A stretch of DNA of 64,000 nucleotides from a virus. Both the position numbers and the translations under genes were made by a program. The DNA lies in the IMG/VR virus record IMGVR_UViG_3300030106_005509, positions 62,001 to 126,000 of that record; one strand, written 5' to 3'. Shown here in pieces: positions 50,754-58,200 of this stretch. Positions within the stretch are counted from its first letter, which is position 1; each line of letters starts with the position of its first letter. The notes beneath the pieces are model-generated. The model did no database searches, was not told the origin of the DNA, and saw only the letters and a program-made list of their open reading frames with translations.

Positions 50754-51422
50754 TTAATCGTAAAGCGCGTTAAGGATTCTTGAAATTATTTCATTTCTAA
50801 TAATGTCGTCTTGCGTAAGTTCTGATATACCAACACCCTCCACATCAGATAGACGATCTAAAAACTCTTCTAAGCCTCCCTGATCTTTCTTTAGAAGGTC
50901 GGTTTGATCTATGTCTCCATTGATAACGGCTTTAGAGTCCCAACCTATTCTAGTAACAAACATCTTAAGCTGCTCAAAGGTTGCGTTTTGTGCCTCATCT
51001 AAAACCACAAAACAGTTATGAAAGTTTCTTCCTCTCATATATTCTAAAGGTACAACTTCGATCTTACCTTCATCTCGGTAGGCTTGAACCCTGTTTGTGT
51101 TTAATCTAAACTCCATCTCTTCCAACACAGGAATTAGATATGGGTGTATCTTCTCTTCAAAGGTTCCCGGTAAGAAGCCCAGACCTCTTCCAGACTCGAT
51201 AACAGGTCTAGTGACTACTAACTTTTCTACCCTTTTGTCTAAGAGATAGTCACAGGCTATTCCGACAGCAACTGCTGTTTTGCCAGTTCCTGCTGGGCCT
51301 GTACAAAAAGTTACATCATTTTTTTCTATAGTCTTGATGTATTCTTCTTGGTTTTTAGTTTTTGGTTTCAGTACTTTTCTTCTAGCTGTACGACCTGCTT
51401 CGGCCTTTTTTCTTCTTGCCAT
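50754..51422 (-). CDS. phoH: PhoH-like ATPase
   Basis: A protein of 222 residues. F-C-T-G-P-A-G-T-G-K-T is Walker A; V-V-T-R-P-V-I-E-S-G and V-V-L-D-E-A-Q-N-A are the PhoH signature segments (Walker B with DEAQN). PhoH genes are common in marine phages; the role, perhaps RNA or phosphate-stress related, is not settled. It lies three bases after the dUTPase gene. Confidence 0.88.
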   Translation of the reverse strand: MARRKKAEAGRTARRKVLKPKTKNQEEYIKTIEKNDVTFCTGPAGTGKTAVAVGIACDYLLDKRVEKLVVTRPVIESGRGLGFLPGTFEEKIHPYLIPVLEEMEFRLNTNRVQAYRDEGKIEVVPLEYMRGRNFHNCFVVLDEAQNATFEQLKMFVTRIGWDSKAVINGDIDQTDLLKKDQGGLEEFLDRLSDVEGVGISELTQDDIIRNEIISRILNALYD

Positions 51423-51424
51423 AT

Positions 51425-51859
51425 TTATTTGCCTGTAGAGCCAAACCCTCCATCACCTCTTTGGGTGGAATCTAATTCTTTTACAACATGTTGTATAAAG
51501 GTTGGGACTTCTTGTATTAAGAGTTGGGCTATTCTATCCCCCTTCTCTATATGATACGTCTCTTGAGTGGTATTATGCAAACAAACTTTTACTTCACCCC
51601 TATACTCAGAGTCTATGACACCAGCATGTCTATGAACACCCTTTACACCCATGGAGGATCTATCCCATATTAATCCAGCATAACCTTTTGGTATTGCAAC
51701 GGCTATGCCCGTGGAAACTAATACAGTTGCATCTGAGGGGATGCTTACAGTTTCAAAAGAATACAAATCCCAACCTGCGTCGTTTAGATGACCCTTAGTT
51801 GGGACTTGGGATGATTCGTGTAGCTGTTTGACTTCAAAAAAGTTGTAATCGTAATTCAC
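51425..51859 (-). CDS. dut: dUTPase
   Basis: A protein of 144 residues starting at a GTG that overlaps the upstream stop (GTGA, 51859); a longer frame to 51886 is less likely because the 47-residue gene occupies it and AAGGAAG lies just before the GTG. D-A-G-W-D-L-Y, R-S-S-M-G, G-V-I-D-S-E-Y-R-G, and R-G-D-G-G-F-G-S-T-G are dUTPase motifs 1, 2, 3 and 5. It hydrolyses dUTP and supplies dUMP. Confidence 0.92.
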   Translation of the reverse strand: MNYDYNFFEVKQLHESSQVPTKGHLNDAGWDLYSFETVSIPSDATVLVSTGIAVAIPKGYAGLIWDRSSMGVKGVHRHAGVIDSEYRGEVKVCLHNTTQETYHIEKGDRIAQLLIQEVPTFIQHVVKELDSTQRGDGGFGSTGK

Positions 51860-51999
51860 TTTTCTTCCTTCTTTTCGTATTCCCAAATCAAATTCGATAG
51901 AGTGCTTCTGGTAATTTTGTTACCAGTTTCTACTTCTTCGTTGAGTTTCTTAGCGATCCATCTGAGCATGTCATTGTCTATTGTGATACTTCTGAGCAT
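51856..51999 (-). CDS. 47-residue ribbon-helix-helix protein
   Basis: A short frame exactly filling the gap between RNR and dUTPase. Its ATG overlaps the RNR stop (TAATG) and its TGA overlaps the dUTPase GTG. L-R-S-I-T-I-D is the RHH beta strand, N-D-M-L-R-W-I-A-K-K-L-N helix A, and T-R-S-T-L-S-N-L-I-W-E-Y helix B. That is the full length of an RHH domain. It may regulate the nucleotide genes as a small repressor; the operator is unknown. Confidence 0.7.
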   Translation of the reverse strand: MLRSITIDNDMLRWIAKKLNEEVETGNKITRSTLSNLIWEYEKKEEK

Positions 52000-54200
52000 T
52001 AGATGATATCGCACTTTCCTCCGGCGCAAGCCCATTCCTGCTCGGGCTTAACATTGTTTTCTTCTTCTATGACTTCAGTATAGTCAACTTTTGAGAATTC
52101 TCTGTTAAGATCCACCCACTCTTTCCAGTTATAAACATCTTTCATGCAGTAGGTGAGTTTTCTAAGATCTCCTTCAAAGTATCTCTCAGCAAACTTTTTG
52201 CATCTATCAGACCATTCTTTTTTGCCATTGCCTTTTATCTTGGCTCCAACACCAAGAAGGGAATCGCAAGCTGCCCATAGATTGTCTTCCCATAAATTTA
52301 ACGCAACTTCTATAAGTCCGCTAACAAAGAGTGAGGCATCTCCATAGTGACGAACCTGTTCTGTTGGCAAGTAAATAGCAGTGAATGGGGCTTGCGGGTA
52401 GTCTTTGTCTCCTGTAATCGGAAGGAGAGATATTCCGCAAAAATACTTTCTATTTTTATAAATGAACCTTTCTACTTCTTGCCACTCTTCTGGTTTTACA
52501 TTGATCGTATTAGACACGTTATGTACAAGCCAAGGTTGAGTACATAGGCTCTTGTTAGTGCCGGGAATTACCCAGCTTTGCTGTGTGCTTTTTACATGTG
52601 TTAGTAAGTCTATAGCGCCAACTTGATTCTTAGTTTTAGATCCCGCAGGAACTTCTACACAAAAAGCTACCACATCATCGCTATCGTTATTCGACCACAC
52701 AGACTCTTCACATGCTCTTGGATTTATATCTCTGAAGTAGTTGTAAATGGGTTCCATTTTATTCGCCTGAACCCTTCGTATATAACGCTTAGCATGATGC
52801 GGATGGATACCAGAGGAAGTACCAAGAACACAACTGCTAGTACCTTCAGGCTTAATACAAGTAGTTCTAGCGGCTTGATTGATTCCAATGATCTTGGTGA
52901 TTCGTTTGTTTTCATCTTTGACTACCTTAGCTCCCTTCTTTTGTATGTCAGGGTTTAGGCATATTTCATGTTGTTCCATGATGCCTGTCATAGACACTCC
53001 GAGTAAAGCCTCTCGCGAAACAATGTTTTCACTAGCTTTACCTAAATATGGAAAGGATGCAAACCCAGCTTGAAGCGAACCTATGATCGAAGCTGCTTTA
53101 CAAGCTTCAAGAAAGTCTTCTTCGGATTTTATCTTTGCACAATTTATTGTACTTAGATTGCAAGCCTGCCAGCCGCTTTCGCCGGTTGTTTCATCTACAG
53201 GCCACATTCCAATCTCAACACATGGATTAACTATTAACTCGGTAGAGTCAGACCATACAAAACCGGGTTCTCCAAACTCTTGTACTGACTTCATAAGTTC
53301 TGAGAACTGCTCGGCTGTTGTTTCATCTCTCAACAATAAAGCTGAATTATTAGATCTTCCTCTTTGCGGATTTTCTACAAACCAAGAGCCAGTTTTAGCT
53401 TTTGCCATCTCTTCGTCATCTGGACTAAACAGACAGATGGTAGCACTTCTACGCACACCTCCTGAAATGACTGCATCAGCACTATGCATGACTATATCAT
53501 AAGCTTGAATTGGTGATAGTTTTCTAATAGGGCCGTTAGCAAACTCCAACTCTTTCAAAGCTTTATCTAGTATTTTTCTAATATTAGAGAGTGCGTTTTT
53601 CAGTGGTTCTGGGCCGGGAGCTTTGCCACCGCTAGAATTTAAAAATGCTCCAGCGGGTCTAATTTCAGAGTAGTCAAAGTTTACATTCTTACCAGTGTAC
53701 TCTGGAAATAGTTCATCCTGCTCAAAATAACTAGACACCAAAACACCGACAGCATCTGACCAGCCCTCAATAGTGTCAGGAATAACAAACTTTTTAGTAC
53801 CGCTCTTACTTTTTACTATCTTCGGTAGTTCGTCCACATGGTGTTTTTGTACAGAAAAACCTGTGCCGCAACCGCACAGTAAAAGATACATACATTCTTG
53901 AAAGAACTTCAGTCTGTCACAAAAAGAGGTGATGCAATTATAGATTCTTGCATTGTGTTTGAAGATTGGCTTACCGCCAAATTGTAAAGCTCTTTGAGAT
54001 CCGAGGACTTTTTTCTTCCTCATCATTTCATAAGCCCATTCTATGTCGTCAAGAACGTCTGGCTTGTCAGAATACTTTTCAAGCATCATGTTTTTAACAC
54101 GACTTACTGCTTCTTCCCAAGTCTCCCTTCTTTTTTTCTCTGGTATCCAACGGGCATATTTTGAAACAAAAGTATAGTCAGACAGTTCTCTTACTGACAT
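51999..54200 (-). CDS. nrdJ: Class II (AdoCbl-dependent) ribonucleoside triphosphate reductase
   Basis: A protein of 733 residues, close to the monomeric L. leichmannii-type RTPR. N-C-I-T-S-F, C-G-C-G-T-G-F-S, and V-N-P-C-V-E-I-G (thiyl Cys with NPCxE) are present. The tail C725-A-G-G-K-C730 matches the spacing of the redox-active C-terminal cysteines. It reduces NTPs to dNTPs with adenosylcobalamin. A GGAG site precedes the ATG. The 5' leader is structured (see separate entry). A thioredoxin gene is at 57901-58200. Confidence 0.9.
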   Translation of the reverse strand: MSVRELSDYTFVSKYARWIPEKKRRETWEEAVSRVKNMMLEKYSDKPDVLDDIEWAYEMMRKKKVLGSQRALQFGGKPIFKHNARIYNCITSFCDRLKFFQECMYLLLCGCGTGFSVQKHHVDELPKIVKSKSGTKKFVIPDTIEGWSDAVGVLVSSYFEQDELFPEYTGKNVNFDYSEIRPAGAFLNSSGGKAPGPEPLKNALSNIRKILDKALKELEFANGPIRKLSPIQAYDIVMHSADAVISGGVRRSATICLFSPDDEEMAKAKTGSWFVENPQRGRSNNSALLLRDETTAEQFSELMKSVQEFGEPGFVWSDSTELIVNPCVEIGMWPVDETTGESGWQACNLSTINCAKIKSEEDFLEACKAASIIGSLQAGFASFPYLGKASENIVSREALLGVSMTGIMEQHEICLNPDIQKKGAKVVKDENKRITKIIGINQAARTTCIKPEGTSSCVLGTSSGIHPHHAKRYIRRVQANKMEPIYNYFRDINPRACEESVWSNNDSDDVVAFCVEVPAGSKTKNQVGAIDLLTHVKSTQQSWVIPGTNKSLCTQPWLVHNVSNTINVKPEEWQEVERFIYKNRKYFCGISLLPITGDKDYPQAPFTAIYLPTEQVRHYGDASLFVSGLIEVALNLWEDNLWAACDSLLGVGAKIKGNGKKEWSDRCKKFAERYFEGDLRKLTYCMKDVYNWKEWVDLNREFSKVDYTEVIEEENNVKPEQEWACAGGKCDII

Positions 54201-54344
54201 CGTTATCTCCTAAAAAAGTGACACTGGTAAACCTAAGTGGTTGGTGAAGGAAAAAAACAAGATTAAACTTAGCACTTAGGGCTAATTGCTTGTCGAGGAA
54301 GTGTCACTTTAGTCCAGTCTGTATGCTAACTCTTTAAACCCCGA
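54201..54344 (-). promoter_or_regulatory. Structured 5' leader of the RNR gene (possible riboswitch/attenuator)
   Basis: In the transcript, AAAGUGACACU (54310-54300) can pair with AGUGUCACUUU (54225-54215), an 11-bp perfect stem followed by a U-run and the AGGAG ribosome site. Inside it, UUAGC/GCUAA (54285-54281 with 54273-54269) forms a hairpin whose loop CCUAAGU (54280-54274) is complementary to ACUUAGG downstream (54238-54232), a 7-bp potential pseudoknot. A canonical B12 box (GCCACUG) is not seen. It could control RNR expression by termination or by sequestering the RBS. Confidence 0.6.
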
Positions 54345-54349
54345 CAGAG

Positions 54350-54359
54350 TATTATACAC
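54350..54359 (-). promoter_or_regulatory. Promoter-like motif upstream of the RNR leader
   Basis: GTGTATAATA as read on the minus strand, about 150 bases before the RNR start, with TATAAT at 54356-54351. It shares TGTATAATA with the motifs at 5048-5063 and 62941-62926. It would start transcription at about 54344 and give the leader described separately. No good -35 is seen. Confidence 0.5.
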
Positions 54360-54407
54360 TATATGTAAAAAGGTTGTTAGTTTTTAATTTATCTACTATT
54401 TGCTCGT

Positions 54408-54878
54408 TTAAGTAAGACCTAGTTCTATCCAGTCTAACCTCAAACCACTGTCAAACAATAGGTTTTGTATCATTTTGTCTTCTTCTGAATGGCCGAAAGC
54501 CTGTTGGCCTGATAATATTTTCCAGTGCCTTATATTATTTTGCCACAGAAGTTTCGCACATCTGCAACAAGGGACATGCGTAACGTAAGCCACAATATTT
54601 TTTTTGGGCTTTATTATCATATTGCTAATTGCGTTTTGTTCTGCGTGAACCATGTATGGGTATTTATCGGGTCTTGTTGTTGGAAGCTCGGAGTCGTCAA
54701 TGTCAGAACAAAATCCGTTATATCCAGCACTAATAACTCTCTTCTTGTGAACAAGGACGCATCCGACCTGAGTTTGAGAGTCAGGACTCCTAGTTCCTGT
54801 CAGTATGGCAAACTGCATGAAATACTCATCCCAGCTTGGGCGAGTTCTTTTCTGTTGAAGTTCTTTCTCTTCTTTCAC
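54408..54878 (-). CDS. dCMP deaminase
   Basis: A protein of 156 residues starting at a GTG overlapping the upstream stop (GTGA). V-H-A-E-Q-N-A and V-P-C-C-R-C are the zinc and catalytic site of deoxycytidylate deaminases. It makes dUMP from dCMP for dTTP synthesis, fitting with dUTPase, RNR and dNMP kinase in the window. No thymidylate synthase is visible. Confidence 0.88.
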   Translation of the reverse strand: MKEEKELQQKRTRPSWDEYFMQFAILTGTRSPDSQTQVGCVLVHKKRVISAGYNGFCSDIDDSELPTTRPDKYPYMVHAEQNAISNMIIKPKKNIVAYVTHVPCCRCAKLLWQNNIRHWKILSGQQAFGHSEEDKMIQNLLFDSGLRLDWIELGLT

Positions 54879-55090
54879 GCTTCAGTTTTTTCTTTTGCTT
54901 TTTTGTCTTTTTTCTTATCGTCTTGCCCATTTAAATAATCTGGATGAATCCAAATCCAGCCTTTGTCGTGGGCGTAAGCTACCATTTTACGAGAACGCTG
55001 ATCCTCTGGCAATAACCACGCCCATAAACCATTGGGAGTTTTCAGCTTTTCTACATTATTTTCTGATGCTAGTTTGTCATTGAACTTCAT
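54875..55090 (-). CDS. Small Trp-rich hypothetical protein
   Basis: A protein of 71 residues with G-L-W-A-W-L-L-P and D-K-G-W-I-W-I-H-P, then a Lys-rich acidic-basic tail. Coupled by ATGA upstream and GTGA downstream. No domain recognised. Confidence 0.45.
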   Translation of the reverse strand: MKFNDKLASENNVEKLKTPNGLWAWLLPEDQRSRKMVAYAHDKGWIWIHPDYLNGQDDKKKDKKAKEKTEA

Positions 55091-56058
55091 CCTAAAACCT
55101 CCAGTCCGTGAATAGCATGTCGCATATCTTCCTCTAGTTGTATTTCTTTAATAAATTCACAAGTGTTTAAATCGTAAACCAGTATCCTCGCTGGTGAAGA
55201 ACCTATAAACACAAGATTGTCTTTGCGTGCTAGACCTCTATTCCAGTTGTTTACTGCTATGTCATCAACACAAAACTTAACATTCTTAGATGGCGGTATA
55301 GGAGCTATGTCAAAATGCACACCGCCAAGTTGTTTGGTTGCTATACCAAGACAGCTAAAGCTAGTAAGATTAGCCATGAATACATCTTCATACTCATAAA
55401 GATTATGTATGAAGCTGGCTGATTTAATTACGTTTACCCCAGCTGGAACAAGACTCGCTTCGGTAAGAGCGCCGCCAGATATGTACGGCATTGGTAACAC
55501 TGTAGACATGTCATTAAAATCATACAAACCAGTTAATAGGCCAGAGACCATAAGCTTTCCGTCGTGATGACAAATTGAGTTTATATGATAGTGATCGTCA
55601 TATGTTTTTTGTTCAGGTGTAATTCTTTGTTTTGAGTCTAGAACTTTATGATGTTCTTCATTGTGTCCATTGATTTGCCAAAATCCGGTCAGGTTATAGT
55701 TCATATCAAAACTAGCAATGGCATCATGAGCGGTGGAAGTAGCCCAGATCGAGTCAGAGAAAAAGCATATCTCATGAACAGACTTGAGGACATCTTGATT
55801 TTTATGGGTCTTTCTGACAGAGAAATCTTTTTTGTCTAATTCAATAAAACCGCTAGAGTCAGAAACAATAATACGATCATCGAGTACAGCAATGCCACGA
55901 AGACCTCTTTCTCCTCCACGTTCATTGTCATTAATAAAATCTTCTTGATAAGGTGCATAATGTACGACCTCTTCTGAGTCTATGTCTACAACATACAGAC
56001 CTCCATGTATGTCGCCTTGCTTAGCAGCTCTTACTACAGTTGTGCAGATTATTTTCAT
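55087..56058 (-). CDS. Beta-propeller-like protein (DUF4915/TIGR03032-type)
   Basis: A protein of 323 residues with repeated strand patterns (G-L-Y-V-V-D-I-D, I-I-V-S-D-S-S-G-F, L-M-V-S-G-L-L-T-G-L-Y, L-V-F-I-G-S-S-P-A-R) as in a beta-propeller. H-Y-H-I-N-S-I resembles the TIGR03032 family found near glycan genes. It may be a lyase, epimerase or sugar-binding protein. It lies next to a transferase and an SDR gene, forming a small glycan island. Confidence 0.55.
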   Translation of the reverse strand: MKIICTTVVRAAKQGDIHGGLYVVDIDSEEVVHYAPYQEDFINDNERGGERGLRGIAVLDDRIIVSDSSGFIELDKKDFSVRKTHKNQDVLKSVHEICFFSDSIWATSTAHDAIASFDMNYNLTGFWQINGHNEEHHKVLDSKQRITPEQKTYDDHYHINSICHHDGKLMVSGLLTGLYDFNDMSTVLPMPYISGGALTEASLVPAGVNVIKSASFIHNLYEYEDVFMANLTSFSCLGIATKQLGGVHFDIAPIPPSKNVKFCVDDIAVNNWNRGLARKDNLVFIGSSPARILVYDLNTCEFIKEIQLEEDMRHAIHGLEVLG

Positions 56059-56907
56059 TTAACTAAAATGTGTTGTAAAGTTAGTATAGGGTTTTGATAC
56101 GTGTTTAAAATTGTACTTGTTATATTGTATTGTTAAGCCTTCTACATATCTATGGTTTATGCCTAAGTCTGTAGTGTCAAAGTTTGTTTTATCAGATATC
56201 TTGTCGCATGAGTTTGAGACAACGACACTGTACTCAGGACAGGACATGTGTAAAGGCATATCGTTTAACATGCCAGCGTAAAGGTTCGTTTGTAGAACTA
56301 ATTCAAAATCTTCTTCGTCTACAATTTTCGATCTAGATAGCGCCCCTTCAATGACATCCTTTTTATAGATATGACCATTAAGAGAAAACGGCATAGCAAA
56401 ATTAGTGAAGCTTCTCAATGACGAAGCGTTCCAAACAAGAAATCTATCAAGCTCGAAGCTACCCTCTGAAGGTTTGTCAATGTGGTAATTTCCGGGTTCG
56501 TAGGGGTTTTGCAATACGGTATTGTTTCCAAGTCTCAGAGATAAAGAACATAAATCATTCTCTTCAAAAAGTTTAGTTATTTTTTTATATGAAGAGACCC
56601 TGTCAAAAAGAATGTTATCATCTTTGAAAAGAGCTACTAAGCCGGTTGACTTCTTGGTTATTTTTAGGATGTCCTTGCTTAGGTTTTTCTTTTTTCTTTT
56701 CTTCCATATGATTGGAAACAAGTAACTTCTCTTTGTCTTACTGTGAAAATGCTCAATAGCCTTTCTGTAACCCTCTTGAAAGTAATCGCTGGAAGCTTTG
56801 TAAAGAACTGTTATTCTAAAAAGATTACCTCCGTTTAGATGTATGCTATCCAGTAATAGATGCAACTGAGCTGGCCTGTCATTTGAGACGATTATAGTTT
56901 CTATCAT
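56059..56907 (-). CDS. GT-A-like glycosyltransferase
   Basis: A protein of 282 residues. I-I-V-S-N-D-R-P-A-Q-L at the start and A-L-F-K-D-D-N-I-L-F (DxD-like K-D-D-N) at about residues 93-102 suggest a GT2/GT-A fold. L-N-G-H-I-Y fits the acceptor region. Coupled to the SDR gene by ATGA. Confidence 0.5.
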   Translation of the reverse strand: MIETIIVSNDRPAQLHLLLDSIHLNGGNLFRITVLYKASSDYFQEGYRKAIEHFHSKTKRSYLFPIIWKKRKKKNLSKDILKITKKSTGLVALFKDDNILFDRVSSYKKITKLFEENDLCSLSLRLGNNTVLQNPYEPGNYHIDKPSEGSFELDRFLVWNASSLRSFTNFAMPFSLNGHIYKKDVIEGALSRSKIVDEEDFELVLQTNLYAGMLNDMPLHMSCPEYSVVVSNSCDKISDKTNFDTTDLGINHRYVEGLTIQYNKYNFKHVSKPYTNFTTHFS

Positions 56908-57899
56908 CTTAAAGCTCTCAGGCTGGGAGGCAGCTCATCTGGAGCATATTGTGATGGGGACTGCATTGATTTGTAGAACCAGTCTAGCGTTTTGTCTATA
57001 CCGTCCTTTAGCTTGGTCTGTGGTTCAAATGATAAGAGCTGTCTAGCTCCAGTTATATCTAAGCATCTTCTTTCAACCCCTTTAGCTTTTGTTTCATTCC
57101 ACTCAATTTTTCCCATGTAATTAGCTGAGTCACAAACCGTACTTACAAGGTCTTTTATAGTGGTCTCTTCGCCGCTTCCGATATTTAATATGCTTGCATC
57201 GACATCGTTTTCTAACGCTAGGACAACAGCTTTAGCACAATCTTCTACGTATATGAAATCTCTAGTTGATTTAGAAGAGCCGTCAACATTGAAGTCTTTC
57301 AGGTCGTTTTCTAACGCAAACCTTACATTGGTGAGAAGGGCGGGTATGATTTTGCCCGCATGAGGATCGAACTCATCTTCTGGCCCATATATGTCAGAGA
57401 ATATTAGACTCAGCGTGTTCATGCCAAACTGTCTTTTATAGGCAACAAGCATGTCGGCTATCGTTTTTTTAGCTATAGAGTAATGTCCTTTTGAGAAATG
57501 GGGATAGCCTTCCCAGAAATCAGTTTCTCTAAACGGCATTGGACATCTAGCAGGGTAGCAGGAGATGTCACAAGCGTTGACTATTTTCTTAACGTCATAT
57601 TGTCTAGCTTCCTCAATTATCTTTATGCTCATGTTCAAATTTTCATACATGAGTCCGCCAGAATATCTGAAGTTAGCGCCCATACCTCCATGCCTACAGG
57701 CTAGATGAACGACATAATCTGGTTTTGTGTAGTCAAATAACCAACCAACATTGGCTTCTTCACCAAGGTCAAGCCCGTCAGTTACTCCAGACGCAGTAAA
57801 TACATTTGAGTAGTCCTGCCGTCTTAGTTCTCTCTCTACATAGCGACCTAGAAATCCTTTGCCGCCAGTTATTAGAATCCTGCTGTTTTTATTTATCAC
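56904..57899 (-). CDS. GDP-fucose-synthase-like epimerase
   Basis: An SDR protein of 331 residues from a GTG start. G-G-K-G-F-L-G is the NAD(P) loop, L-A-C-R-H-G-G-M-G the family loop, I-S-C-Y-P and Y140-S-I-A-K144 the catalytic site, intact unlike the related protein at 8328-9281. It likely makes a GDP- or dTDP-deoxyhexose. It starts two bases after the thioredoxin stop. Confidence 0.78.
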   Translation of the reverse strand: MINKNSRILITGGKGFLGRYVERELRRQDYSNVFTASGVTDGLDLGEEANVGWLFDYTKPDYVVHLACRHGGMGANFRYSGGLMYENLNMSIKIIEEARQYDVKKIVNACDISCYPARCPMPFRETDFWEGYPHFSKGHYSIAKKTIADMLVAYKRQFGMNTLSLIFSDIYGPEDEFDPHAGKIIPALLTNVRFALENDLKDFNVDGSSKSTRDFIYVEDCAKAVVLALENDVDASILNIGSGEETTIKDLVSTVCDSANYMGKIEWNETKAKGVERRCLDITGARQLLSFEPQTKLKDGIDKTLDWFYKSMQSPSQYAPDELPPSLRALR

Positions 57900-57900
57900 T

Positions 57901-58200
57901 TTAGAGGTCTTCTAGAAATTTAACCAGATCTTCCGCAGGCATGTTGTTTTCTTTCTTAACAACATTATGATCTTCATCCATTATCACAACTGTTGGATAT
58001 CGTTCTATATCAAACTCTGTGACAAATTTTCTGTTCTGAGGCTTGTTGCAAACCACAAAAGCAGGCTTGCTCTTATGATATGGTTCTACAGCTTCAATTA
58101 CTTTTTCATCAGCCCAAGTATGTTTCTTCATGTGTTCACAGTGAGGACACCAATCTGTCATGAATACTACTACTTGATGTTTACTTTTTTTCTTGCCCAT
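57901..58200 (-). CDS. Thioredoxin-like protein
   Basis: A protein of 99 residues. W17-C-P-H-C21 is the redox motif and Y-P-T-V-V-I the cis-Pro loop. It could reduce the class II RNR encoded downstream. It is the first gene after the terminator at 58215-58248, so it needs its own promoter or read-through. Confidence 0.85.
   Translation of the reverse strand: MGKKKSKHQVVVFMTDWCPHCEHMKKHTWADEKVIEAVEPYHKSKPAFVVCNKPQNRKFVTEFDIERYPTVVIMDEDHNVVKKENNMPAEDLVKFLEDL

Follow-up and report, generated by a model that had tools for sequence, protein, structure and literature searches.

The ribonucleotide reductase (RNR) gene of the analysed DNA is preceded by a leader which, as judged from comparison with its relatives, is a real, conserved structured RNA with a fixed anatomy in 47 distinct homologues. 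The window, i.e., the whole stretch of 64,000 nucleotides that was analysed, carries this leader on the minus strand at 54346-54201, directly upstream of the RNR open reading frame (54200-51999, minus strand). The encoded protein of 733 aa is an adenosylcobalamin-dependent, RTPR-like class II enzyme according to TIGR02505 (E = 4e-67), with a score of 227 bits that lies below the equivalog cut-off of 340. Comparative analysis indicates that the RNA is pseudoknotted, linked to a terminator, headed by a predicted promoter at its 5' end, and specific for RNR in everything searched. With a confidence somewhat better than even, we interpret it as a cis-acting leader RNA of phage RNR operons which works by transcription attenuation. 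RNR is the step supplying DNA precursors and its genes are among the commonest in marine viruses, and to our knowledge it is largely open how phages set the level of the enzyme. As far as checked in the open-access literature, the RNA has not been described. A survey of 224 candidate RNAs from 2017 reportedly may include an RNR-associated motif, and the families of that survey are expected in the Rfam copy searched here.

All 47 members of the set are located on uncultivated phage contigs. Searching with the RNR protein yielded 80 phage loci, about a dozen of them with the same leader, and pattern scans made without RNR information, together with a scan using NrdA, led to a core set of 40 distinct RNAs after opposite-strand and chance matches had been removed. 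Seven RNAs were added later; the last scan supplied six of them, and L136 came in through a weak match to the covariance model. DNA patterns with weak anchors returned mostly chance matches. The homologues are related by descent, so that independent events are fewer than sequences, and the sequence conservation of helix P2 is partly a matter of ascertainment, since several scans required GCGACAC. A strict pattern applied to 84,980 cellular genomes gave five matches, all of them due to chance by inspection, and no match to the model was found in five of the nearest RNR records from cultured phages.

Read from 5' to 3', the RNA consists of P1a, the junction J1 (often UAAAG), the P3 hairpin, one A, P2a, in most cases 1-2 nt, P1b, P4a, P4b and P2b. 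P1, the 5'-terminal helix, is formed by pairing across P2, and the two make up an H-type pseudoknot, with P3 between P1a and P2a (loop 1) and P4 inside P2 (loop 3). In the window, where all parts are on the minus strand, the 5' strand of P1 is UGUCGGGG (54339-54346), followed by the A-rich junction UUUAAAG (54332-54338), of which UAAAG or a near variant is present in most of the 40 RNAs. The P3 hairpin (54311-54331), recognised by comparison of the 40 RNAs, pairs 54328-54331 (AGUU) with 54311-54314 (GACU) and is weak in the window leader itself. The 5' strand of P2, AAAGUGACACU (54300-54310), pairs with AGUGUCACUUU (54215-54225), and the 3' strand of P1, CCUCGACA, lies between them at 54291-54298, mostly 1-2 nt past the 5' strand of P2 among the homologues. 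P4 is formed by CCUAAGUG (54273-54280) and CACUUAGG (54232-54239). A U-tract resembling that of an intrinsic terminator (54212-54217) stands right behind P2 and overlaps its last bases, and the ribosome-binding site of the RNR gene, AGGAG, is located at 54207-54211.

The existence of a structured leader had been noticed in the initial annotation and is confirmed, the structure being larger and more knotted than was seen then. The 11-bp stem described there, 54300-54310 with 54215-54225, is present and is our P2; it does run directly into six U (54217-54212) and then the ribosome-binding site (54211-54207). The pairing between a loop and a downstream segment also exists as P4, with 8 bp (54273-54280 with 54232-54239) rather than the seven given. 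The hairpin thought to present this loop, UUAGC/GCUAA, occurs in the window and its closest relatives L001 and L002 only, and a hairpin enclosing the P4 5' strand was therefore rejected as a general feature. A potential pseudoknot had been suspected in the loop pairing, whereas the true one is P1 (54339-54346 with 54291-54298), which had been missed.

The folding energy of the window leader shows no excess stability (z = +0.68; 149 of 200 shuffled sequences fold equally well or better) and does not speak for the structure, the support for which comes from the comparative evidence. Compensatory changes, which the initial annotation had proposed to look for in homologous leaders, were abundant. 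In alignment A2, comprising 25 sequences, P1 is paired in 99% of the cases with double changes in five of its eight pairs, the core nine pairs of P2 are standard in 100% of the cells with five double-changed, and P4 is paired in 91% with six of seven pairs double-changed. The whole structure has 17 double-changed pairs, compared with 8.0 in shuffles, which ignore kinship, and at most 9 in slid versions; when the 3' partners were slid by 1-3 columns, pairing fell from 94% to 28-45%. Because the shuffles ignore kinship, three further checks were made. Firstly, the P1 strands score 19.8 within their own sequence and 12.7 when partners are exchanged between divergent sequences. Secondly, RNAalifold recovers P2 and P4 unaided. 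Thirdly, seven RNAs were recovered by queries that contained neither P1 nor P2b, and both helices are present in all seven, while the single chance match has neither; one of the seven, L136, was first seen through the covariance model, which contains P2 and not P1. The P1 sequences in these RNAs are new (AACCAGA/UCUGGUU, AGCCAGA/UCUGGCU and GCUGGA/UCCGGC).

P3 is a helix of 3-7 bp which closes one nucleotide ahead of P2a in 40 of the 40 RNAs, and its pairs exchange between AGC/GCU, AGU/ACU and AAC/GUU. P4 is well defined in group A as well as in L162, L165 and L353-L356; for several further members of group B it is uncertain. Of the 25 group-A members, 24 retain a G-U pair in P1 (columns 13/65), which speaks for an RNA and not a DNA element. 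Other folds were considered and rejected. An alternative pairing of P1a with P2a and P1b with P2b (both UGUCG/CGACA) is possible in many group-A members and is lost in L001, L154, L174 and L175. An HDV-like ribozyme needs the order P1, P2, P3, P3', P1', P4, P4', P2', whereas in the phage RNA the hairpin follows P1a and precedes P2a, instead of separating P2a from P1b. As for a likeness to the P3/P7 core of group I introns, P4-P6 and the guanosine site are missing.

The -10 region of the predicted promoter, GTGTATAAT (54351-54359, minus strand), is kept upstream of nearly all homologues and, taken with CTAACA at 54375-54380, matches the sigma-70 hexamers at 10 of 12 positions. The predicted transcription start, at approximately 54344, falls inside the 5' strand of P1, and the first one or two pairs of P1 may be upstream of it; also in the homologues the promoter is placed for a predicted start within or beside this strand. 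There are 13 sites of GTGTATAATA with no more than one mismatch in the window, compared with 5.4 expected, and the over-represented motif may represent a class of phage promoters.

At the opposite end, 38 of the 40 core RNAs finish in P2 with a U-tract or in a separate terminator, which places a terminator between promoter and gene as in an intrinsic attenuator. The U-tract follows P2b directly in 31 of the 40, and a strong separate hairpin terminator is found within about 40 nt in seven of the remaining nine, while L081 and L096, which represent one phage type, have neither a U-tract nor a recognisable terminator. Termination after the RNA thus seems to be maintained even though its sequence basis changes. 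Both signals, or tandem ones, occur in L352-L356, L136, L132, L166 and L182, except for L354, which has the separate hairpin only. The window leader contains no simple short-loop terminator, the stem at this place being P2, and the loop that P2 encloses (60-100 nt) is long for a terminator. In many group-A members the RNR start lies 16-77 nt past P2b, which leaves no room for a promoter of its own, and expression from the leader promoter therefore requires read-through.

The arms of ten separate terminators pair with the RNA no better than expected by chance (p 0.16-0.72), nor was any competitor of P2b found to be conserved among the homologues. With no visible antiterminator there is room for two other explanations. 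One is a stand-alone small RNA gene, where promoter, structured RNA of approximately 135 nt and terminator would make up a full unit acting in trans, and RNR would be expressed by read-through or from other promoters. The promoter and terminator at the two ends of 38 of the 40 RNAs, the latter often in tandem, agree with such a unit. So does a possible second promoter ahead of NrdA in L352-L356: in L352, L353, L355 and L356 a conserved GGGTACAAT, two mismatches from GTGTATAAT, lies about 75-81 nt past P2b between the tandem terminators and NrdA. Nevertheless, we consider a small RNA rather unlikely, for the RNA is always beside RNR, in two different left-hand contexts and with three RNR types, and space for a separate promoter is lacking in group A as well as in L175, where an open reading frame with an AGGAGG site begins about 20 nt past the terminator.

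The other explanation is an antiterminator acting in cis, i.e., a nascent RNA which folds, associates with RNA polymerase and enables it to pass the terminators ahead of RNR. The putRNA of phage HK022 works in this way (PMC9378689), and it resembles the phage RNR leader in being a structured RNA which opens a phage transcript and is followed by terminators, strong ones in our case and with no competing antiterminator. However, 31 of the 40 RNAs have their own last helix, P2, as the terminator stem and are thus complete only once the terminator forms. In addition, put acts on whole early operons, while the leader described here is pseudoknotted and tied to RNR. A mechanism of the put type is accordingly held to be improbable.

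Attenuation in cis, the reading we favour, agrees with the association of the RNA with its gene. An RNR follows all 47 RNAs, and comprises class I NrdA in 26, RTPR-like class II in 18 and NrdJ_Z class II in three. All real matches from the scans made without RNR information also precede an RNR. With the group-A covariance model each phage record gave a single copy, at the RNR; the remaining matches listed were on the opposite strand at that position or did not exceed chance level. Thus, as in riboswitches, a conserved structure is found in the leader of a gene of related metabolism.

The genomic surroundings fall into two contexts. In context A, phages with class I RNR and phages with class II RNR have the same left flank (epimerase, F8, F2, F4) and the same right flank (dUTPase, PhoH, F5, F9-F11), which means that the enzyme was exchanged while promoter and RNA stayed. 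This context is represented by window positions 50754-58200 and by loci L161, L172, L082 and L093, with NrdA and a beta-subunit homologue on the one hand and a class II RNR on the other swapped in place. NrdA is followed by the beta-subunit homologue (F12) in eight of the examined contigs. A gene resembling dCMP deaminase adjoins the leader where the RNR is of class II, and none of the NrdA versions examined has it. Context B has an unrelated left flank (F15, F16, F18, F19), and RNR is again 3' of the RNA. Plain synteny can explain the adjacency within context A, and not across both contexts. A short lysine-rich open reading frame of the type FEVNFVLRDKNGKPTGKKKSF is often located between the RNA and RNR, with different types of the enzyme, e.g., in L176 (NrdA), L179 (NrdJ), L136 and L040.

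In four RNR relatives, L054, L060, L069 and L078, the same promoter is present and the RNA is absent, which makes the RNA an optional module. Its being dispensable would fit a passive 5' structure, which would shield the mRNA or hold RNR at a constant low level with no sensing involved. P1 would indeed sequester the 5' end, the sequences of the helices are free to vary, and strictly conserved unpaired nucleotides are few, which sets the RNA apart from most riboswitches. On the other hand, the architecture (J1, P3, the single A, P2, and P1b after mostly 1-2 nt) is more tightly conserved than stabilisation requires, and we regard the passive role as quite improbable.

No family was assigned to the leader when the whole window was searched against Rfam at the gathering threshold, nor was there any match up to E = 10 over 54150-54460 with the cobalamin and purine/2'-dG models included. 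Ten homologous loci gave nothing but a chance match to CsrC (22 bits, the gathering score being 61). These results bear on cobalamin sensing, which the initial annotation had suggested from the B12 dependence of the window RNR. Adenosylcobalamin riboswitches control B12-dependent as well as alternative enzymes, including some RNRs. The phage leader differs from them in having no model match and no B12 box, in its H-type pseudoknot instead of the cobalamin core, and in preceding class I NrdA in most copies. Since only class II RNR uses the cofactor, cobalamin is unlikely as a shared ligand, and we give a divergent adenosylcobalamin riboswitch hardly any credence. The interpretation offered originally is thus partly supported, "riboswitch or attenuator" being a fair description of the class of a structured, terminator-linked RNR leader.

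Among known riboswitches, SAM-II and preQ1 are H-type pseudoknots with interlocked P1 and P2. The phage RNA shares with them this interlock with a junction suited to ligand binding, but is larger, carries P3 in loop 1 and P4 in loop 3, precedes different genes and has no sequence or model match to them. The orphan motifs manA and wcaG are, likewise, riboswitch candidates from marine sequences and phages (PMC2864571), whereas the RNR leader has other associated genes and no Rfam match. A functional precedent is the 2'-dG riboswitch ahead of the RNR of Mesoplasma florum, a terminating riboswitch which provides feedback from the RNR product (PMC12268651). Both RNAs are RNR leaders linked to transcription termination, but the 2'-dG riboswitch has a purine-type aptamer fold and an antiterminator helix (PMC12268651), while the phage RNA is an H-type pseudoknot with no match to the Rfam purine models. 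The mutually exclusive terminator and antiterminator helices of 2'-dG and purine riboswitches were not found in it.

Under the attenuation model, transcription starting at the GTGTATAAT promoter, within or beside the 5' strand of P1, would produce the P1/P2 pseudoknot that the comparison supports, with P3 and P4 in its first and third loops. P2 forms last and precedes the U-tract or a nearby separate terminator, behind which comes RNR, or a short open reading frame and then RNR. Completion of the pseudoknot would make P2 an intrinsic terminator stem and cut the RNR transcript short; where folding is hindered, polymerase would read through into RNR. As one RNA serves three RNR types and was found with nothing else, the signal is most probably one shared by RNRs of every type. 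The RNA is plausibly a riboswitch for a nucleotide-pool ligand, and by analogy a deoxynucleotide or related pool signal is our guess as the simplest choice. Such a ligand might bind at the P1/P2 junction and provide end-product feedback, both the ligand and the direction of control being guesses. It is conceivable, though we hold it doubtful, that the RNA constitutes a new riboswitch class of marine phages, which responds to deoxynucleotides or the DNA-precursor pool, terminates on folding, serves any RNR class and stays in place through RNR exchange. A compact pseudoknot with a built-in terminator is a concrete object for ligand screens, and the fact that RNR classes replace each other while the leader stays shows how a genomic slot can be defined by a regulatory RNA for a function, not for a gene family.

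Three minor observations were made. The leaders of L138-L143, upstream of NrdA, gave no match to the covariance model and are too alike for covariation analysis. About 200 nt upstream of NrdA, L138, L139, L141 and L143 have TATAAT, a P1-like UCGGGG..CUCCGA, a hairpin and a terminator-like end, AGUGUCG-U8, and this leader may be a divergent member of the family. In Pseudaeromonas phage KLEP7 (L223, 176-2610), RNR is annotated as two pieces approximately 180 nt apart, as if interrupted. In the window, an open reading frame resembling thioredoxin/glutaredoxin (WCPHCEHMK; 57901-58200, minus strand) is found some 3.5 kb further upstream with the same orientation, and its product could be a source of reducing power for RNR.
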